Shown here piece by piece: positions 40,828 to 51,674 of a DNA stretch of 64,000 nucleotides. Origin of the DNA: Gemmatimonadetes bacterium T265 (GTDB lineage: Bacteria; Gemmatimonadota; Gemmatimonadetes; Gemmatimonadales; Gemmatimonadaceae). Below the pieces are notes generated by a model that did not search any database, was not told where the DNA came from, and worked only from the letters and a program-made list of their open reading frames with translations. Positions within the stretch are counted from its first letter, which is position 1. Each line of letters opens with the position of its first letter. The stretch lies in NCBI GenBank assembly GCA_019973575.1, contig BPUI01000001.1:2740342-2804341 (forward strand). Direction: 5' to 3'. The position numbers were made by a program, and so were the translations under genes.

Positions 40828-42598
<1,771 letters not shown>

Positions 42599-43706: not shown

Positions 43707-45326
43707 TCAGCTCACGAGCTTGTAGCGGAAGGCGGTCACGCCGCTCTTCGCCGTCTCGACGCGCGCGGACTTGCTGTCCCCGACGGCGAGCGGACCGACG
43801 CTGACGTTCTGCGTGTCGACGACCTGACCGTTGCGGTCGAGGAACTCGACGGCGAGGGTGTAGGTCTTCGAGCCGCCGGCGGCCGCCGCCGCGGCCGGTC
43901 GGGTGCCGGCCCGCGCGCCCGCGCGTGTCGTCGTCGTCGACGATTCGACCTTCCGGGCCTCGACGTTGACCCCGAGCACGGCGCGCGACTCGCCGCGCGT
44001 GAACTCGGTGAACGACACCTTCACCGGCATCTGCTCGCTGAGCTGGTTGTACTTCACGAGCGAGTCGGTGTAGGCCGTCTTCTGCGCGCCCTGCGGCGCG
44101 GCCTTCGCGAGCCCCTGGTACGCGTAGGCGAGGAAGAGGTAGTTCGCCGGGTTCTCCGGGTCGACGGCGATCAGGCGCTGCCCCACGGGGATCATCTGCG
44201 CCCACTTCTGCTGCTGGTAGTAGGTCGCCGTGAGGTTGTTGAGCGCGTCGCGCTGGTACGGGTTCTTTTCGAGCGCCGCGGCGAACAGCTTGGCCGCGTC
44301 GTCGTTGTTGTTCGCTTTCGACGCGATCACGCCGGCGTTGGTCAGCGCGAGGTCGTCGTACTTGGAGGCGTTGTTGAGCTGGTCCGCGTAGACCGCGCCG
44401 AGGGCGCTCTTGTCCCCGGTGAGCTGGACCATGTCCGCGAGCGTCGCCTGGAGCCGCGGCGCGTCGGGGCTGTTCGGGTACGCCGCGAGGAAGGTGCGGA
44501 TCGCGTCCGCCGCCTCCTTGCCGCGGGCGGCCTTGTCGGCGGCCGGCGCGGCCTGCGCGGCGCTCACGGCGTTGACCGCCAGGTTCTGGAGCGCGGCGGA
44601 GCGAAGGTCACGGCCCTGCTGCGTGGTGTCGTTCGCGGCGAGCGTCGCGACCTGCGGCCAGTAGCGCGACGCGGCGGCCGCGTCGCCCTTGGACTGGGCG
44701 ACGTTGGCGAGCACGTAGTACGGCAGCGGGCTCCCCTTGTAGACGATCAGCGCGCGCTCGGCGAGCCGCGCCGCCGAGTCCGGCTTGGGCGGGTTCGCGT
44801 TCAGGGCGGCGAGCGAGGCGTTGGTCACCGGCACCCACGCGTTCTGCCGAATCTGCGACATCGCGGGCGCGCAGTTCGGCTTGGCCTGCTCGACGGAGGT
44901 GGCGAGCGAGTCGATCGTCTTCAGCAGGTCCACCGACTCGGCCCCGTTCCCGCCGGTGTAGCCGAGGTCCGCGCGCGTGGCGTTCGTCGAGAGCCGGAGG
45001 TCCTGCGCCATGAGCATGAACGCCTGCGAGAGCGTCAGCGCCGTGCCCGTCGGGTTGGCCTTCGCCGCGTTCGCGTCGCCGGTGACGCGCGCGACGGCGC
45101 TCCGCAGCGACTTGAGCTTCGCCGCGGTGTCGGGGAGGTTCTGCGCGCCCTGGATGCTCAGGAACGCGAGCCCGAGCGAGCCCGGGTTGTTCTGGCTGAT
45201 GTCACAGGTCGGCCCCGCAGGGGCGGCGGGAGCATTCTTGGCCTGTGCGGCGGCCGGTCGCGCGGCGGCGCTGGCGCCGGCGACGAGGGCGGCGCCGAGC
45301 GCCAGATGGGGGAACGAACGCGTCAT
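43707..45326 (-). CDS. Exported TPR-repeat protein
   Basis: The 539-residue protein has a signal peptide (MTRSFPHLALGAALVAGASA, cleavage near AAAQA) and mostly helical repeats. TPR-like units include ALIVYKGSPLPYYVLANVAQ, AAALEKNPYQRDALNNLTAT and LIAVDPENPANYLFLAYAYQ. The C-terminal ~100 residues form a beta domain (YTLAVEFLDRNGQVVDTQNV). Such proteins scaffold envelope assemblies; no partner is evident. GAGAGGAGAG precedes ATG 45326. Confidence 0.8.
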   Translation of the reverse strand: MTRSFPHLALGAALVAGASAAARPAAAQAKNAPAAPAGPTCDISQNNPGSLGLAFLSIQGAQNLPDTAAKLKSLRSAVARVTGDANAAKANPTGTALTLSQAFMLMAQDLRLSTNATRADLGYTGGNGAESVDLLKTIDSLATSVEQAKPNCAPAMSQIRQNAWVPVTNASLAALNANPPKPDSAARLAERALIVYKGSPLPYYVLANVAQSKGDAAAASRYWPQVATLAANDTTQQGRDLRSAALQNLAVNAVSAAQAAPAADKAARGKEAADAIRTFLAAYPNSPDAPRLQATLADMVQLTGDKSALGAVYADQLNNASKYDDLALTNAGVIASKANNNDDAAKLFAAALEKNPYQRDALNNLTATYYQQQKWAQMIPVGQRLIAVDPENPANYLFLAYAYQGLAKAAPQGAQKTAYTDSLVKYNQLSEQMPVKVSFTEFTRGESRAVLGVNVEARKVESSTTTTRAGARAGTRPAAAAAAGGSKTYTLAVEFLDRNGQVVDTQNVSVGPLAVGDSKSARVETAKSGVTAFRYKLVS

Positions 45327-45491
45327 GCCAGGGGCTCTCCTCTCAGGTAGGGGACAGACCGCCAATATACCACGCGCGACGGCCGCCCTCCCGTACCACC
45401 TGGCCGGGGGCGGGTTCCGCCGCCGGGCCACGCGCTTCGGGCCGCAGCCGGGCGCGCGGGGCGCCCGTCGGGGGCGATAAGTTGCGCCCGC

Positions 45492-47060
45492 ATGACCGAA
45501 CGCCTGCGCACCCGTTTTCTCGTCGTCGGGACCGGCGTCGCCGGGCTCCACACTGCGTGGCGAGCCGCGCAGGGAGTGGGCGGCGACGGCGACGTGCTGC
45601 TGCTGACGAAGCGCACGCTCTTTGACTCCGCGACGGCCTACGCGCAGGGCGGGATCGCCGCCGCACTCGGCGCGGGCGACTCGCCGGCCCTCCACCGCGC
45701 GGACACGCTCGCCGCAGGCGCCGCGCTCTGCGACGCCGACGCGGTCCAGGTGCTCGTGGAAGAAGGCCCGTCGCGCGTGCGCGAGCTGCAGACCGCGGGC
45801 GCGGCGTTCGACCTCACCCCGACGGGGGAGATCAAGCTCGGGCGCGAGGCGGCGCACTCGCGCGACCGGATCGTGCACGCGCGGGGCGACCAGACAGGCG
45901 CGGAGGTCGCGCGCACGCTCGTCGCGCGGGTGCGGGCCGAGGGGCGCATCCGGGTGCTGGAGCAGGCGCGCGTGCTGGACCTCGTCGTCGACGACGGGCC
46001 ACGCGGGCGGCGTTGCGCGGGGGTGCGGGCGAGCGTGGCGGGGCAGGCGGTCGAGATCACGGCCGACGCGACGGTGCTCGCGACGGGCGGCTGCGGGCAG
46101 GTTTACCGCTACACGACGAACCCGCTCGTCGCGACGGGCGACGGGTACGCGATCGCGCACCGGGCGGGGGCGCAGCTCGCCGACATGGAGTTCGTGCAGT
46201 TCCACCCGACGGCGCTCGACACGGCCGAGAACCCGCTGGCGCTCGTCTCGGAGGCGGTGCGCGGCGAGGGGGCGCTGCTGCTCAACGCGCGGCTCGAGCG
46301 CTTCATGCCGGCGCGGCACCCGCTCGCCGAGCTCGCGCCGCGCGACATCGTGGCGCGCGAGATCTTCCGCGAGCAGCAGCGCACGGGCCGCGTGTGGCTC
46401 GACGCGCGGAACCTCGGTGGGACGCCGAGCAACAAACCCGGCGGCCATCCCGGCGCGCGGGTGCGATTCGCGGAACGGTTCCCGGGGATCTACGCGCTCT
46501 GCACGGCGCGAGGGATCGACCCCGAGCGCGCGCTGATCCCGGTCACGCCGGCCGCGCACTACATGATGGGCGGAGTGGTCACGGACCTCGCCGGGCGGGC
46601 GTCGCTCGACGGGCTGTGGGCGGTGGGGGAAGTGGCCCGCACGGGGGTGCACGGGGCGAATCGGCTGGCGAGCAACTCGCTGCTCGAAGGGCTGGTGTTC
46701 GCGGAGCGGGTCGCGCGGGATCTGCTCGTGGCGGCGGCGCCGGCGAGGGGGCCGCGGCGGCGCGACGGGTGGGAGGTGGCGCCGCTCGCGGACCGGGGGG
46801 CGGCGCAGGTCGCCGCCGACGCGGTGCGGACGGCGATGTGGGAAGGGGCGGCGATCGACCGGACCGGGAGCGGGTTGGAGCGGTGCCTGCGGCAGCTGGC
46901 GGGGGTGGAACGGCGGTTAACGGGAGGAATGACCGAGGAGCGGAACCTCGTCGAGACGGCGCGGTTGATTGCGGCGGGGGCGTTGCGGCGACGGGAGAGT
47001 CGGGGGGGGCACTACCGGAGTGATTATCCGCAGGCGCGCCTCGTTCGTTCGGCTCCGTAG
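45492..47060 (+). CDS. nadB: L-aspartate oxidase
   Basis: The 522-residue flavoenzyme oxidises L-aspartate to iminoaspartate, the first step of NAD synthesis. It has the FAD dinucleotide motif (FLVVGTGVAGLHTAW), the TAYAQGGIAAAL segment, substrate-site HSRDRIVHARGDQTG and EFVQFHPTAL, and the C-terminal GLVFAERVARDL with the helical tail GMTEERNLVETARLI. It is complete. nadA, the partner enzyme, lies about 960 bp downstream, separated by the inverted-repeat element with a four-helix-bundle gene. Confidence 0.95.
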   Translation: MTERLRTRFLVVGTGVAGLHTAWRAAQGVGGDGDVLLLTKRTLFDSATAYAQGGIAAALGAGDSPALHRADTLAAGAALCDADAVQVLVEEGPSRVRELQTAGAAFDLTPTGEIKLGREAAHSRDRIVHARGDQTGAEVARTLVARVRAEGRIRVLEQARVLDLVVDDGPRGRRCAGVRASVAGQAVEITADATVLATGGCGQVYRYTTNPLVATGDGYAIAHRAGAQLADMEFVQFHPTALDTAENPLALVSEAVRGEGALLLNARLERFMPARHPLAELAPRDIVAREIFREQQRTGRVWLDARNLGGTPSNKPGGHPGARVRFAERFPGIYALCTARGIDPERALIPVTPAAHYMMGGVVTDLAGRASLDGLWAVGEVARTGVHGANRLASNSLLEGLVFAERVARDLLVAAAPARGPRRRDGWEVAPLADRGAAQVAADAVRTAMWEGAAIDRTGSGLERCLRQLAGVERRLTGGMTEERNLVETARLIAAGALRRRESRGGHYRSDYPQARLVRSAP

Positions 47061-47102
47061 GGCGAGGTTATCGGCCGCCGCAGCCGTCCTCGCGCGGGAA
47101 GG

Positions 47103-47268
47103 GGGCGGGGCTGGTGGGTCGAAGACCCGGTGGTGCAGGGTCGGGTGGGGCGACGGATCGAGCGGGACGTCGCGGGGCGTGTACGGCGGGGAGCGCAGCG
47201 GGACGTGCGAGATGCCGCGTCGCGGGTGGGGCGATCCGGGGAGGACCGCGCGACAGGCACGAGGCGGG
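47103..47268. repeat. Left arm of a perfect 166-bp inverted repeat
   Basis: The sequence starting GGGCGGGGCTGGTGGGTCGA and ending GACAGGCACGAGGCGGG is exactly complementary to 47825-47990; every base compared agrees. It starts 43 bp after the nadB stop. No gene is evident within the arm. Confidence 0.95.
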
Positions 47269-47316
47269 CAAAACGGCTGATTGGGCGAAAGGGGCGGAAG
47301 CGACGAGGGCGAGGGG

Positions 47317-47694
47317 TCAGCGCATCGGCGAATGCAACAGCGCGTGGAGCAAGCGGCCGGTCCAGCGGCAGTGCTTGACCAGTTCGTCGGCGGACGCGGG
47401 CGGGACGAGCGAGACGGCGGCGACGACGTCGATCTGCGCCTCGAGTTCGCGGAGCGAGCCCCACGCGATCGTAAGCAGACGGGCACGATCGGCGCGCGTG
47501 GTCCGTGCGCAGCCCTCGGCGATGTTCGACGGGACGGACAGCGCGGCGCGCCGCATCTGATCGCCGATGCTGGCGCGCTCGGTCGCGGGAAAGTGCGCGG
47601 TCGCGTCGTAGACGAGCTTCGCGAGTGTGGTGGCCTCGACCTGCGCGCGGAGGCGAGGGAGGCGGGCCGGGCGGACGGAGATGGTGGAGGACAT
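47317..47694 (-). CDS. Four-helix-bundle protein (S23/23S rRNA IVP family)
   Basis: The 125-residue protein (ATG 47694; ATG 47709 also possible) is a typical S23-family member: [40 protein letters not shown] and [20 protein letters not shown]. The family is known from intervening sequences in 23S rRNA genes; the fold also resembles the accessory protein Avd of diversity-generating retroelements. Here it is not in rRNA: it lies antisense to the nad genes between two 166-bp inverted repeats. No transposase accompanies it. Its role is unknown. Confidence 0.85.
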
Positions 47695-47824
47695 GGCCGC
47701 ACTATGCATCGGGCACCACGAAGCGAGTGGCCCATTTTGTTGCGCGATGCATCATGTCGACGCACGCCCGCCGTGATCGTCGCGCCCCGACGCCCCCGCC
47801 CTGCGGCCCCGGCCAGCCGCTCTA

Positions 47825-47990
47825 CCCGCCTCGTGCCTGTCGCGCGGTCCTCCCCGGATCGCCCCACCCGCGACGCGGCATCTCGCACGTCCCGCTGCGC
47901 TCCCCGCCGTACACGCCCCGCGACGTCCCGCTCGATCCGTCGCCCCACCCGACCCTGCACCACCGGGTCTTCGACCCACCAGCCCCGCCC
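47825..47990. repeat. Right arm of the perfect 166-bp inverted repeat
   Basis: Exact reverse complement of 47103-47268. The arm ends 31 bp before the nadA start codon, so the nadA promoter or ribosome-binding site lies against it. Just inside the arms the similarity continues imperfectly for about 12 bp. Confidence 0.95.
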
Positions 47991-48021
47991 TCCAACCGAG
48001 CGACCGCTTATCGTTCGGATC

Positions 48022-49065
48022 ATGTCCGTTGTCACTCCATCACCGCCCTTCGCCGCCCTGAGCGACGAGATCCGCTCCCTCGCGGCATCCCGCGACGCCG
48101 TCATCCTCGCGCACAACTACGAGCGTCCCGAAGTCCAGGACGTCGCCGATTACGTCGGCGACTCGCTCGGCCTTTCGCGCGAGGCCGCGAAGACCGCCGC
48201 CGACGTGATCGTGTTCTGCGGCGTGCACTTCATGGCGGAGACGGCGAAGATCCTTTCGCCGGAGAAGACGGTGCTGCTCCCCGACCTTGCCGCGGGGTGC
48301 TCGCTCGCGAGCACGATCGACGCCGCGCAGCTGCGCGCGTGGAAGGCCGAGCACCCGGGCGCGGTCGTCGTCTCGTACGTGAACACGACGGCCGAGGTGA
48401 AGGCGGAGAGCGACTACTGCTGCACGAGCGGCAACGCGGTCGAAGTCGTCGACGCGATCCCCGCGGACCGGGAGATCCTCTTCCTCCCCGACATGTTCCT
48501 CGGCGCGCACGTCCGGCGGATGACCGGGCGCGAGAACATCCACGTGTGGATGGGCGAGTGCCACGTGCACGCGGGGATCGACCCCGAGCACATCACCCTG
48601 CAGCGCGCCGCGCACCCCGGCGCCGAGTTCCTCATCCACCCCGAATGCGGCTGCGCGACGCCGGTGGTCGAGGCGATGTCGGCCGGGGCGATCGACCCGA
48701 CGGACGTGCACATCCTCTCGACCGAAGGGATGATCAAGCGGCCGGCGGAGAGCACGCGCGACGAGTTCATCGTCGCGACCGAGATCGGGATCCTGCACCG
48801 GCTGCGCAAGGCGCACCCGGGCAAGACCTTCTACGCCGCGAGCGACCGCGCGCAGTGCGCGTACATGAAGGTGACCACGCTCCCCAAGGTGCGGCACGCG
48901 CTCGAGACGATGACGCACGAAATCACGGTGCCTAACGCCGTCGCGGCGCGGGCGCGGCGCGCGATCGAACGAATGGTCGCGATCGGCGGGCCGGGCGGCG
49001 GCCCCGGGCTGTCGGGCTCCGCGCGCGCGCCCTTCCGCACCTCGGACGAGGACCCCGGCGAATGA
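48022..49065 (+). CDS. nadA: Quinolinate synthase
   Basis: The 347-residue enzyme condenses iminoaspartate with dihydroxyacetone phosphate to quinolinate using a [4Fe-4S] cluster. Motifs: [37 protein letters not shown] (first Cys region), [20 protein letters not shown] and [18 protein letters not shown] 48022 begins the conserved sequence. The stop overlaps the nadC start (ATGA). Confidence 0.96.
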
Positions 49066-50000
49066 CGAACCCTCCCGACGACGGACCGAAGGCCCGACCG
49101 AAGGCGAGACGACGCGCGCCGGCGGGGGTTCCCGTCGCGACGCCGGTCGACCCGCTCTACTTCCCGCTCACGCCCGCGCAGGTCACGGCGCTCGTGCGCG
49201 ACGCGCTGCAGGAAGACGAAGCCCTGAACGACGTGACGACCCTCGCGACCGTGCTCGCGGGGCGGCACGCGCGCGGGCAACTCGTCGCGCGGCAGGCCGG
49301 CGTGATCGCCGGCCTCGCGCTCGCGCTCGAAGCCTTCCACCAGCTCGACGCGCGCGTGATCGCGCGCGTGGACGTGCCCGACGGCGTCGAGGTCGCGGCG
49401 GGGACGCCGATCGTCTTCCTGTCGGGGCACGCGCGCGGGATCCTCAGCGCGGAGCGGGTCGCACTCAACTTCGTGCAACGGCTCTCGGGCGTCGCGACGC
49501 TCACCGCGCGCTACGTGCACGCGGTCGCCGGGACGGGCGCGCGGATCCTCGACACGCGGAAGACGACGCCCGGGTGGCGGCGGCTGGAGAAGTACGCGGT
49601 GCGTGCAGGCGGCGGGGTGAATCATCGGATGGACCTCGCGTCATCGGTGCTCATCAAGGACAACCACCTCGCGGCGGTCGACAACGACGTCGCGTTCGCG
49701 GTGCGCCGCGCGCGCGAGGTGGCGCCTCCGGGGGTGAGCGTCGAGGTCGAATGCGACCGACCGGACCAGGTCGAGGCCGCGCTCGCGGCCGGGGCGGACA
49801 TCGTGCTGCTCGACAACATGCGGCTCGACGCGCTGCGGGCGTGCGTGCAGCTCTGCCGCGGGCGGGCGCAGACCGAGGCGTCCGGCGGCGTGCGGCTCGA
49901 CACCGTGCGCGCGATCGCCGAAGCGGGCGTCGACTTCATCTCGGTCGGCGCGCTCACGCACTCCGCGCCCGCGATGGACCTCGCGCTCGACTTCGAGTAG
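49062..50000 (+). CDS. nadC: Nicotinate-nucleotide pyrophosphorylase (quinolinate phosphoribosyltransferase)
   Basis: The 312-residue enzyme converts quinolinate and PRPP to nicotinate mononucleotide. Motifs: [73 protein letters not shown] and [14 protein letters not shown] basic, probably disordered leader of about 30 residues precedes the fold. It is translationally coupled to nadA. Confidence 0.96.
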
Positions 50001-50012
50001 CGCGCCCGCCGG

Positions 50013-50621
50013 CTACGGCACCGCCGCGGCGGAGTCCGCCGGGTCGGCGGGGCGCGGCGGTAGATCGGACAGGTGCTCCTGTACGATCATCCACCGGCCG
50101 CCGCGGCGCACGAACACCGCGGTCCACGCGCCGGCCAGGGTGTGCGGCAGCCCGCGCGGCGTCTCGTGCGGGATCGCATAAGTCACCGTGAGGACAGCCG
50201 CGTCGGGGCCGAGCGCGGTGGCGTAGCGCTCGCGGACGACGAAGCGCGGGTCGCGCATGTTCTGCCCGACGCGCGTCCAGAAGCCGCCGATCGACTGCGC
50301 GAGCAGCGCGCGCGAGGTCGTCACCCGCCCGGCGGCTGCCGAGACGACGGGATCGTGCGGGGCATAGAGGCCGAGCAGCCGGTCGACGACGCCCGGGCGC
50401 GAGAAGTCGTACGCGTCGGTGATAAGTCGGGTGAGGGTGTCGGCAAGTGCCGCGTCGCGTGCAGCGGCGGTTGCGGCGGCGGCGCGGACCCGCGTATCGT
50501 TGGTCGTCGGATTGCAGGCGACGGCGAGTGCGATCGACGGTACGAACAGAACACGGGAAGCCTGGACGAGGCGGACGCTCCTTCGCACGACGGCTGTGAT
50601 GAGCGGGTGCGTTGTCCTCAT
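50013..50621 (-). CDS. SnoaL/DUF4440-like lipoprotein
   Basis: The 202-residue protein has an N-terminal hydrophobic segment ending in a lipobox (VPSIALAVAC). An NTF2-like domain follows: ADTLTRLITDAYDFSRPGVV, LLGLYAPHDPVVSAAAGR, then AVLTVTYAIPHETPRG and WTAVFVRRGGRWMIVQEHLS. The cone-shaped fold binds small ligands; no catalytic residues are evident. Convergent with nadC. Confidence 0.8.
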   Translation of the reverse strand: MRTTHPLITAVVRRSVRLVQASRVLFVPSIALAVACNPTTNDTRVRAAAATAAARDAALADTLTRLITDAYDFSRPGVVDRLLGLYAPHDPVVSAAAGRVTTSRALLAQSIGGFWTRVGQNMRDPRFVVRERYATALGPDAAVLTVTYAIPHETPRGLPHTLAGAWTAVFVRRGGRWMIVQEHLSDLPPRPADPADSAAAVP

Positions 50622-50876
50622 GCGGTGTCGGACGGCGTCTCGAAAGCAGGACAGGGCAGGGCCGGCGCGGCGTCAGGTTCGACGCGCGCGCGAGGGGCGG
50701 CGCAGGCGGGTGGCGCCCGGTCGGTCCGGCGCGCGATATGCCCGCCTCGCGCACGCTCGCACTCGCCGCGCCACGCGCTATTTCTCATACAGCGCGCGGG
50801 GTCGACGTGTCGACGGACGTCGCCTGCCGCACCGTTCGCGAAACCACGCTCTGACCCGTACGCCGGGAGAAATGCG

Positions 50877-51674
50877 ATGAGCCGAATCACAGCTACGCCG
50901 GCACGCGCTCGTTCCGCCGCCGCGACGCTCGCGGCAGCCACGCTTGCCGTGGGGCTGGCGGGCTGCCGTGGAACGGACGGTTCGGGCGACACCGGACTGG
51001 GCGGCGACGGCCTCAGACGCGACCTCGATGCCGCGGCCGCCTCCGCCGCGTTCGCGCCTCCGCTTCGCGGCGACGCGCCGGTCCGGTTCGTCTCGGCGCT
51101 CGAACTCGGCGCGAGTCCGGCGCCGTCGGGCGTCGCGCACGCGACCGCGCCCGCGCACCCGCGTCAGGTGCTAGCCTCTGCACGCGTCCCGCACAACGCG
51201 CCGACCCGCGTGATCGTGCGCGTACGGTACGTCGACGCGCCGGCGGCCGCGGAGGAGGTCGCGTCGACCAGTTCGGCGGAACCGAGCGCGCCGACGGCCG
51301 GCGGCGGCGGGACGTTCTCGCCGGGTACCGAGGTCGCGGCCGGCCCGGCCCCCGGAGCGGGTACCGGCGGCGCCGGCCGCGGACATGGGCGCTCGGGATG
51401 GGGCGTGGTCGGCGGCCTGCTCGGCGTCGTCATCCGCGGCGGCATGATCGGCGACATCGACCACTGCGATCCGCACGACGCGTCGGCGCGACACGTGCCG
51501 TCGCCGTACCCCGGGCAGTATCCCCGGCAAACCCCCGGCGGACGGTCGCCGGGCGAGGTGATCGGCGGGGACTACCACGGCGTGATCGGCGGGCGGTCGA
51601 GCGGCACGCTCGTCGTCCCCGTCGGGCGTATCGTCGGCGGGCTGACGCGGGGGCGCGGGGCAGCCGCGTTCTGA
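50877..51674 (+). CDS. Hypothetical lipoprotein, glycine-rich
   Basis: The 265-residue product has a lipoprotein signal (LAAATLAVGLAGC). The middle is of low complexity, and a glycine-rich C-terminal half includes GWGVVGGLLGVVIRGGMIGD and a run of PGQYPRQTPGGRSPGE. One short strand, THVIVRVRYVD-like (TRVIVRVRYVDAPAA), suggests a small beta domain. GGGAGA precedes ATG 50877. No family recognised. Confidence 0.6.
   Translation: MSRITATPARARSAAATLAAATLAVGLAGCRGTDGSGDTGLGGDGLRRDLDAAAASAAFAPPLRGDAPVRFVSALELGASPAPSGVAHATAPAHPRQVLASARVPHNAPTRVIVRVRYVDAPAAAEEVASTSSAEPSAPTAGGGGTFSPGTEVAAGPAPGAGTGGAGRGHGRSGWGVVGGLLGVVIRGGMIGDIDHCDPHDASARHVPSPYPGQYPRQTPGGRSPGEVIGGDYHGVIGGRSSGTLVVPVGRIVGGLTRGRGAAAF

Follow-up and report, generated by a model that had tools for sequence, protein, structure and literature searches.

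S23 proteins, familiar for decades as products of rRNA intervening sequences (IVSs), have, to our knowledge, no agreed function, and we likewise know of no established cause for the heptamer repeats and gene-less hairpins that are scattered through many genomes. An S23-like four-helix-bundle fold also characterizes Avd, the accessory protein of diversity-generating retroelements. Among described systems, the helix 45 IVS of Coxiella burnetii carries an S23 open reading frame (ORF) within an inverted-repeat stem loop, with heptamers just before the ORF, and rRNA IVSs are processed by RNase III and thought to be selfish (PMC4990558). The REPIN/RAYT system (TnpA_REP) combines a gene flanked by inverted repeats with many gene-less hairpins of the same repeat, in lineage-specific dialects (PMC3116915, PMC8266576). 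Cyanobacterial STRR and other heptamer repeats, as well as the inverted GGGAATC pairs of Xanthomonas, form intergenic hairpins built from a genome-specific unit (PMC4692102). In the literature searched, which took in few subscription journals and no bioRxiv preprints, no report was found of an S23 gene outside rRNA that is flanked by inverted heptamer arrays specific to its locus.

The locus described here, located in a 64-kb stretch of DNA analyzed as a whole (the window), adds an IVS-like S23 element outside rRNA that has gene-less sister hairpins. Taken together, the evidence suggests that mobile hairpin elements without a transposase form a family that is kin to rRNA IVSs and has gone largely undescribed. 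The reading that we favor, and consider moderately likely, is an S23 hairpin element in which an S23 gene and a short leader occupy the loop of a long inverted repeat, with the S23 protein probably aiding the copying or spread of the hairpin.

Anatomy of the S23 element between nadB and nadA

The analysis of the window (Table 1) confirmed by an exact-match test that the two arms are perfect reverse complements, and at lower stringency the repeat finder widens the inverted repeat to 219 nt at 90%. In a sliding scan of the 64-kb window, the local inverted-repeat score reached 341 at the element, compared with a best value of 39 elsewhere and a median of 24, and the repeat is therefore not a product of chance. 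S23 is the sole gene between the arms in the ORF list, lying on the minus strand between two plus-strand genes. No transposase was found among the ORFs between the arms, an Rfam scan of positions 44000-51000 matched no family, rRNA included, and reverse transcriptase (PF00078) is absent from the genome of origin. The first-pass annotation, which had described exact 166-bp arms around a single S23 gene on the strand opposite to the nad genes, with no transposase, reverse transcriptase or rRNA present, was accurate in all of these respects.

Table 1. Features of the S23 element and its surroundings, in window coordinates
Feature	Coordinates	Strand	Basis
Left arm, 166 bp exact (weaker homology 47090-47308)	47103..47268	+	reverse-complement test, repeat finder
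Right arm, 166 bp exact (weaker homology 47785-48003)	47825..47990	-	reverse-complement test, repeat finder
S23 gene (23S rRNA-intervening-sequence protein, four-helix bundle family), 130 aa, intact	47317..47709	-	ORF, PF05635
S23 leader, 88 nt, from start codon to inner end of extended arm	47710..47797	-	spacing
Inner loop edge on the S23-downstream side, resembling the loop edge of S23-less palindromes (ATTGGGCGAAAGGGGCGG)	47269..47316	.	blastn, reading
nadB, upstream neighbor	45492..47060	+	element occupies nadB-nadA gap
nadA, downstream neighbor	48022..49065	+	gene call
Single-sided array of four 14-nt units (GGGCGCTGTTGGTC-like), second repeat dialect	41633..41685	+	pattern match

The S23 gene starts with ATG, and its product matches PF05635 (23S_rRNA_IVP; E = 2e-25, 89.5 bits against a cut-off of 33.8, residues 23-122), while the only solved relative found by sequence is the Xanthomonas structure PDB 2gsc (E = 2e-16). 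The leader presumably holds the putative promoter of S23. By comparison of S23 pairs (dN/dS = 0.05-0.14), S23 is under strong purifying selection. A second S23 copy in the same genome (L048:2020-2410; G000:C1:852873-853175) is interrupted by an in-frame TAG, which probably makes it a pseudogene; a copy of GGCGCTGTTGG lies upstream of it and copies of CCAACAGCGCC lie downstream.

Arm families, repeat dialects and insertion sites

A search of the genome of origin with the window arm returned nine matches, namely the two window arms, three other inverted pairs and one single arm, with the seven non-window matches being 83-87% identical. The three other pairs enclose short loops without an S23 gene, forming palindromes with arms of 80-219 nt and 96-100% complementarity; in one of them (L009:2904-3554), 219-nt arms that are 100% complementary flank a 213-nt center. 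Blastn of 47061-47330 revealed similarity that continues beyond the exact arm in L009 and L010, and blastn together with reading revealed that the sequence immediately inside the window arms resembles the loop edges of the S23-less palindromes, which places the S23 cassette at the center of a palindrome that is otherwise gene-less. The outer parts of the palindromes carry substitutions that are common to an element's own two arms and missing from the other copies, and arm identity between elements is 78-90%, except for two right arms at 98%. Such element-specific substitutions on both arms demonstrate that the arms change in concert within an element. One suspected further copy at C3:192471 was rejected as a chance match; it lies near a reading frame (L047:1950-2700, G000:C3 near 192.5 kb) that resembles a site-specific, integron-type tyrosine recombinase.

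Across 40 other genomes, relatives of the 166-bp arm were limited to two marginal matches of 36-48 nt, and the window arm is thus private to its own genome. The first-pass idea that the arm might recur was therefore borne out within this genome and not beyond it; the arm is not confined to the one site, but the other S23 genes of the genome are flanked by arms unlike it. A second dialect in the same genome, with a 14-nt period (32 matches vs 2 in the control), flanks two of these other S23 genes (L048 and L049) and also forms S23-less hairpins.

S23 genes were found in 146 of the 179 genomes of the family, identified as Gemmatimonadaceae because it includes Gemmatirosa, with up to 14 per genome. 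At 64 of 87 S23 loci from this family, the flanking inverted repeat exceeded the 99th percentile of mismatched-flank controls, in which the left flank of one locus is paired with the right flank of another, and 61 of the 87 beat the 99th percentile of shifted windows of the same loci; 23 had no clear inverted repeat. Among S23 loci on genome contigs from other phyla, which were obtained by an alignment-based search (a single-sequence search of genome contigs found no close S23 relatives), 35 of 75 exceeded both controls. On viral contigs, 22 of 29 loci passed the shifted windows and only 6 of 29 the mismatched flanks, since near-identical loci inflate the latter control, and the majority of the plasmid records (n = 9, mostly cyanobacterial) have matching inverted arrays around S23. 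The spacing in related elements (n = 61) is also close to that of the window element: the repeat begins a median of 4 nt past the stop codon and ends a median of 89 nt before the start codon, compared with 5 nt and 88 nt in the window. Arm sequence varies from locus to locus, and a 7-nt period is present in 42 of 61 S23 arms (lag-7 identity, 0.508 vs 0.262); the window arms have no such period and represent a minority type of long arms without heptamers. Flanking inverted repeats around other S23 genes, which the first-pass annotation had envisaged, are thus real but specific to loci or genomes, and they do not constitute one conserved terminal repeat. In one IMG/VR locus (L241, considered with L240), a partial second S23 copy lies just upstream of the first, joined to it via the same heptamer array, as if the S23 unit had been duplicated in tandem.

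Heptamer arms are shared with gene-less hairpins, as illustrated by two sister species, G130 and G131. The S23-arm heptamer of G130, GGAGTCAGGAGTCAGG, has 481 matches in that genome, compared with 1 for the reversed pattern used as a control (each of the overlapping matches in an array counts), often as inverted pairs approximately 100 nt apart, and the hairpins inspected have long stems that carry either a three-hairpin core or a different kind of loop. In G131, the heptamer GGGCCAN, which is essentially absent from G130, matches 266 times, and AGTCAGG, a unit with zero matches in seven other genomes, matches 131 times (control, 43). The two species also have in common a three-hairpin core whose middle, CTCATCAGATGAG, is the same, yet its arms differ between them, as if the arms had been replaced together while the core was kept. 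Five S23-less loci of these species (L284, L305, L308, L310 and L401) consist of a long stem and three hairpins, with the middle CTCATCAGATGAG kept and the outer hairpins differing. Rfam returned nothing above threshold for the three-hairpin structures scanned in G130 and G131, and sub-threshold miRNA matches on hairpins were discarded, as any near-perfect hairpin can yield them. The loops of arm-sharing hairpins are otherwise unrelated. More generally, the heptamers of an array recur in S23 arms from the same genome (values of 0.75 for G137 and 0.50 for G005, for example) and only seldom in those of other genomes; for G130 such sharing is partly circular because loci were chosen by heptamer, the unbiased measures being the whole-genome counts against the control and the other genomes.

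This association is further illustrated by a comparison of seven S23-rich with six S23-free genomes, which gave 13 vs 0 heptamer inverted repeats and 62 vs 5 period-7 arrays per 800 kb, heptamer arrays thus being approximately 12-fold rarer without S23, while periods of 5, 6, 8 and 9 showed no comparable difference. Tested per genome, the difference is significant (Fisher p = 0.016, Mann-Whitney p = 0.031) in a small sample in which kinship is ignored. Two S23-rich genomes (G004 and G019) have almost no gene-less heptamer hairpins in the stretches sampled.

The first-pass annotation had also raised the possibility of nadB-nadA sites without S23, and in relatives this gap is indeed either short and plain or occupied by an S23-less hairpin. 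The hairpin units differ among genomes (GAGCGTC in G015, GCTGCGG in G173, ATTGCGG in G002, AGTCAGG in G130 and GGGCCA in G131), and those of G130 and G131 belong to the same dialects as the S23 elements of the respective genome (L066 and L084 in G130; L079 in G131). The gap is therefore a site of recurring hairpins, and among the nadA loci examined, S23 was found only in the window copy. On cyanobacterial plasmids (L391, L395 and L396), S23 genes annotated as "four helix bundle protein" lie within CRISPR-cas operons with inverted short arrays around them, between cas6 and cas4 in Pseudanabaena and Anabaena 90 and between cas10 and cmr3 in Picosynechococcus. On gene order, these would be insertions between operon genes, comparable to the nadB-nadA case. 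In many relatives, S23 divergently adjoins a ychF-like gene (GTP-binding ATPase), which constitutes a second recurrent site (L091, L109, L094, L096, L105, L132, L136 and L137) where homology spans the S23 gene and is lost downstream.

Movement, arm maintenance and rival explanations

Movement of the whole unit is evident in G130, where two S23 copies match at 90% identity along 526 nt and the homology stops at the outer arm edges, beyond which the flanks are unrelated. At an orthologous site in two species (L100 and L129), flanks of 89-94% identity enclose S23 units that are only 78% identical and point in opposite directions, and the unit has thus been flipped or replaced. Inspection by eye of the edges at two loci, L066 and L084, revealed no obvious target-site duplication.

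The pairing of the arms was investigated on the premise that selection on the sense RNA should make arm mismatches favor G.U pairs. Mismatches of the sense-wobble and antisense-wobble types numbered 111 vs 93 in Gemmatimonadaceae, 27 vs 49 in other genomes and 14 vs 14 on viral contigs. With no sense G.U excess, selection on the sense RNA hairpin is not supported as the keeper of the arms, and DNA-level arm-to-arm copying, the simpler reading, looks to be what maintains them. The first-pass annotation had read exact arm identity as recent formation, gene conversion or selection; copying between arms is favored among these, and selection acting through the sense RNA is not.

Under the S23 hairpin element reading, each arm would define one population within a genome, comprising a single S23-bearing copy, or a few, together with gene-less hairpins, as is the case for RAYTs and REPINs. 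These elements would insert or persist in intergenic gaps, here between nadB and nadA, and their arms would be kept matched by copying through the hairpin, by way of template switching or gene conversion, which lets arms drift fast between genomes while the two arms of an element remain paired. The likeliest role of the S23 protein is to bind the hairpin and promote its copying or spread, which would draw on host replication and repair enzymes in steps that are conjectural at the molecular level; we infer, in other words, that S23 acts on the hairpin and drives its movement. On this view, those of the elements that landed in the helix tips of rRNA would be the rRNA IVSs. The first-pass proposal of a non-autonomous mobile element with S23 as its only gene is upheld as to its mobile-like character and sole gene, but the window copy is probably the gene-bearing, autonomous-type member and the S23-less hairpins that share arms are probably the non-autonomous ones.

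The strongest rival, which we nevertheless regard as unlikely, is that S23 genes are passengers, tolerated or captured in the loops of hairpins that spread or grow by replication slippage and template switching or through an unrecognized transposase. Consistent with this, arm-sharing hairpins have loops with nothing else in common, no dedicated protein is required in principle for arms to be copied or heptamer arrays to grow, and S23-rich genomes without gene-less hairpins exist. Strong purifying selection on S23, an S23-repeat association across phyla far above controls and the scarcity of heptamer arrays in S23-free genomes argue against it. A RAYT-type transposase or a reverse transcriptase acting in trans was likewise rejected as the source of movement: the Y1 (RAYT-type) transposase (PF01797) is absent from the genome of origin (G000) and from 10 of the 12 genomes searched, and RAYT-type and reverse transcriptase enzymes are absent from most S23-rich genomes tested.

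Selection at the RNA level, with the hairpin protecting, processing (through RNase III) or regulating the S23 or nad transcripts and S23 serving as a host RNA-binding protein, is improbable. The predicted RNA folds are very stable, rRNA IVSs are RNase III substrates (PMC4990558) and purifying selection on S23 would fit a host protein, but the absence of a sense-strand G.U excess, the variable presence and orientation of the element at orthologous sites and the occurrence of gene-less copies by the hundred in one genome count against this explanation. Finally, a recent local inverted duplication or assembly fold-back that happens to flank S23 would account for the exact arms and their lack of heptamers, but it is very hard to reconcile with diverged arm copies at four other loci (three of them palindromic) and the same anatomy in dozens of independent genomes, and assembly error in particular is unlikely given that the arms are akin to other palindromes in the genome and that the anatomy recurs in dozens of independent assemblies.

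A broader form of the S23 hairpin element reading, put forward tentatively as a possibility, is that transposase-free hairpins throughout bacteria owe their mobility or maintenance to S23 proteins, which would recognize a lineage-specific heptamer stem, copy or lengthen both of its arms in 7-nt steps and spread gene-less hairpins in trans, with rRNA IVSs, cyanobacterial heptamer hairpins and cas-operon S23 genes all being products. Should S23 genes prove to be the members of hairpin populations that carry a gene, the puzzles of S23 function and of heptamer hairpins would merge into one testable system, in which a mobile or self-copying hairpin works without a recognized transposase or reverse transcriptase. 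A way would also open to finding out what many genes annotated only as "four helix bundle protein" do, including those in CRISPR-cas operons.

Comparison with known systems

Diversity-generating retroelements differ from the present case in that the genome of origin has no reverse transcriptase. Like MITEs, the gene-less copies are short, dispersed elements with long terminal inverted repeats, but no parent transposase was recognized and the arms differ between loci and genomes. The arms of related S23 elements resemble STRR-like repeats as 7-nt arrays, often in inverted pairs, with a genome-specific unit; the latter were described without a linked gene, whereas the arrays here flank S23 genes.

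The resemblance to 23S rRNA IVSs is closer, with an S23 gene in the loop of an inverted-repeat stem and, as in Coxiella, heptamers beside S23 in many related elements, the window arms being non-heptameric. In contrast to IVSs, the element lies in an intergenic gap (no Rfam match), has its own leader and a gene on the strand opposite to its neighbors, shares its arms with gene-less hairpins elsewhere in the genome, and carries an S23 gene of a kind held under purifying selection, while the S23 genes of IVSs are decaying. With REPIN/RAYT the element shares the pairing of a gene-bearing copy with gene-less hairpins of the same flanking repeat (three palindromes share the window arm), but S23, from a different family, stands in place of the Y1 (HUH) transposase, and the stems are heptamer arrays or long unique arms and not GTAG-type REP hairpins. 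Since it departs from IVSs in one defining property, location in rRNA, and from REPIN/RAYT in another, the Y1 transposase, the element is best viewed as a variant that is related to the former and would work like the latter. The Coxiella-type IVS is its closest described relative, and REPIN/RAYT, by analogy, may be taken as the closest model of how it works.
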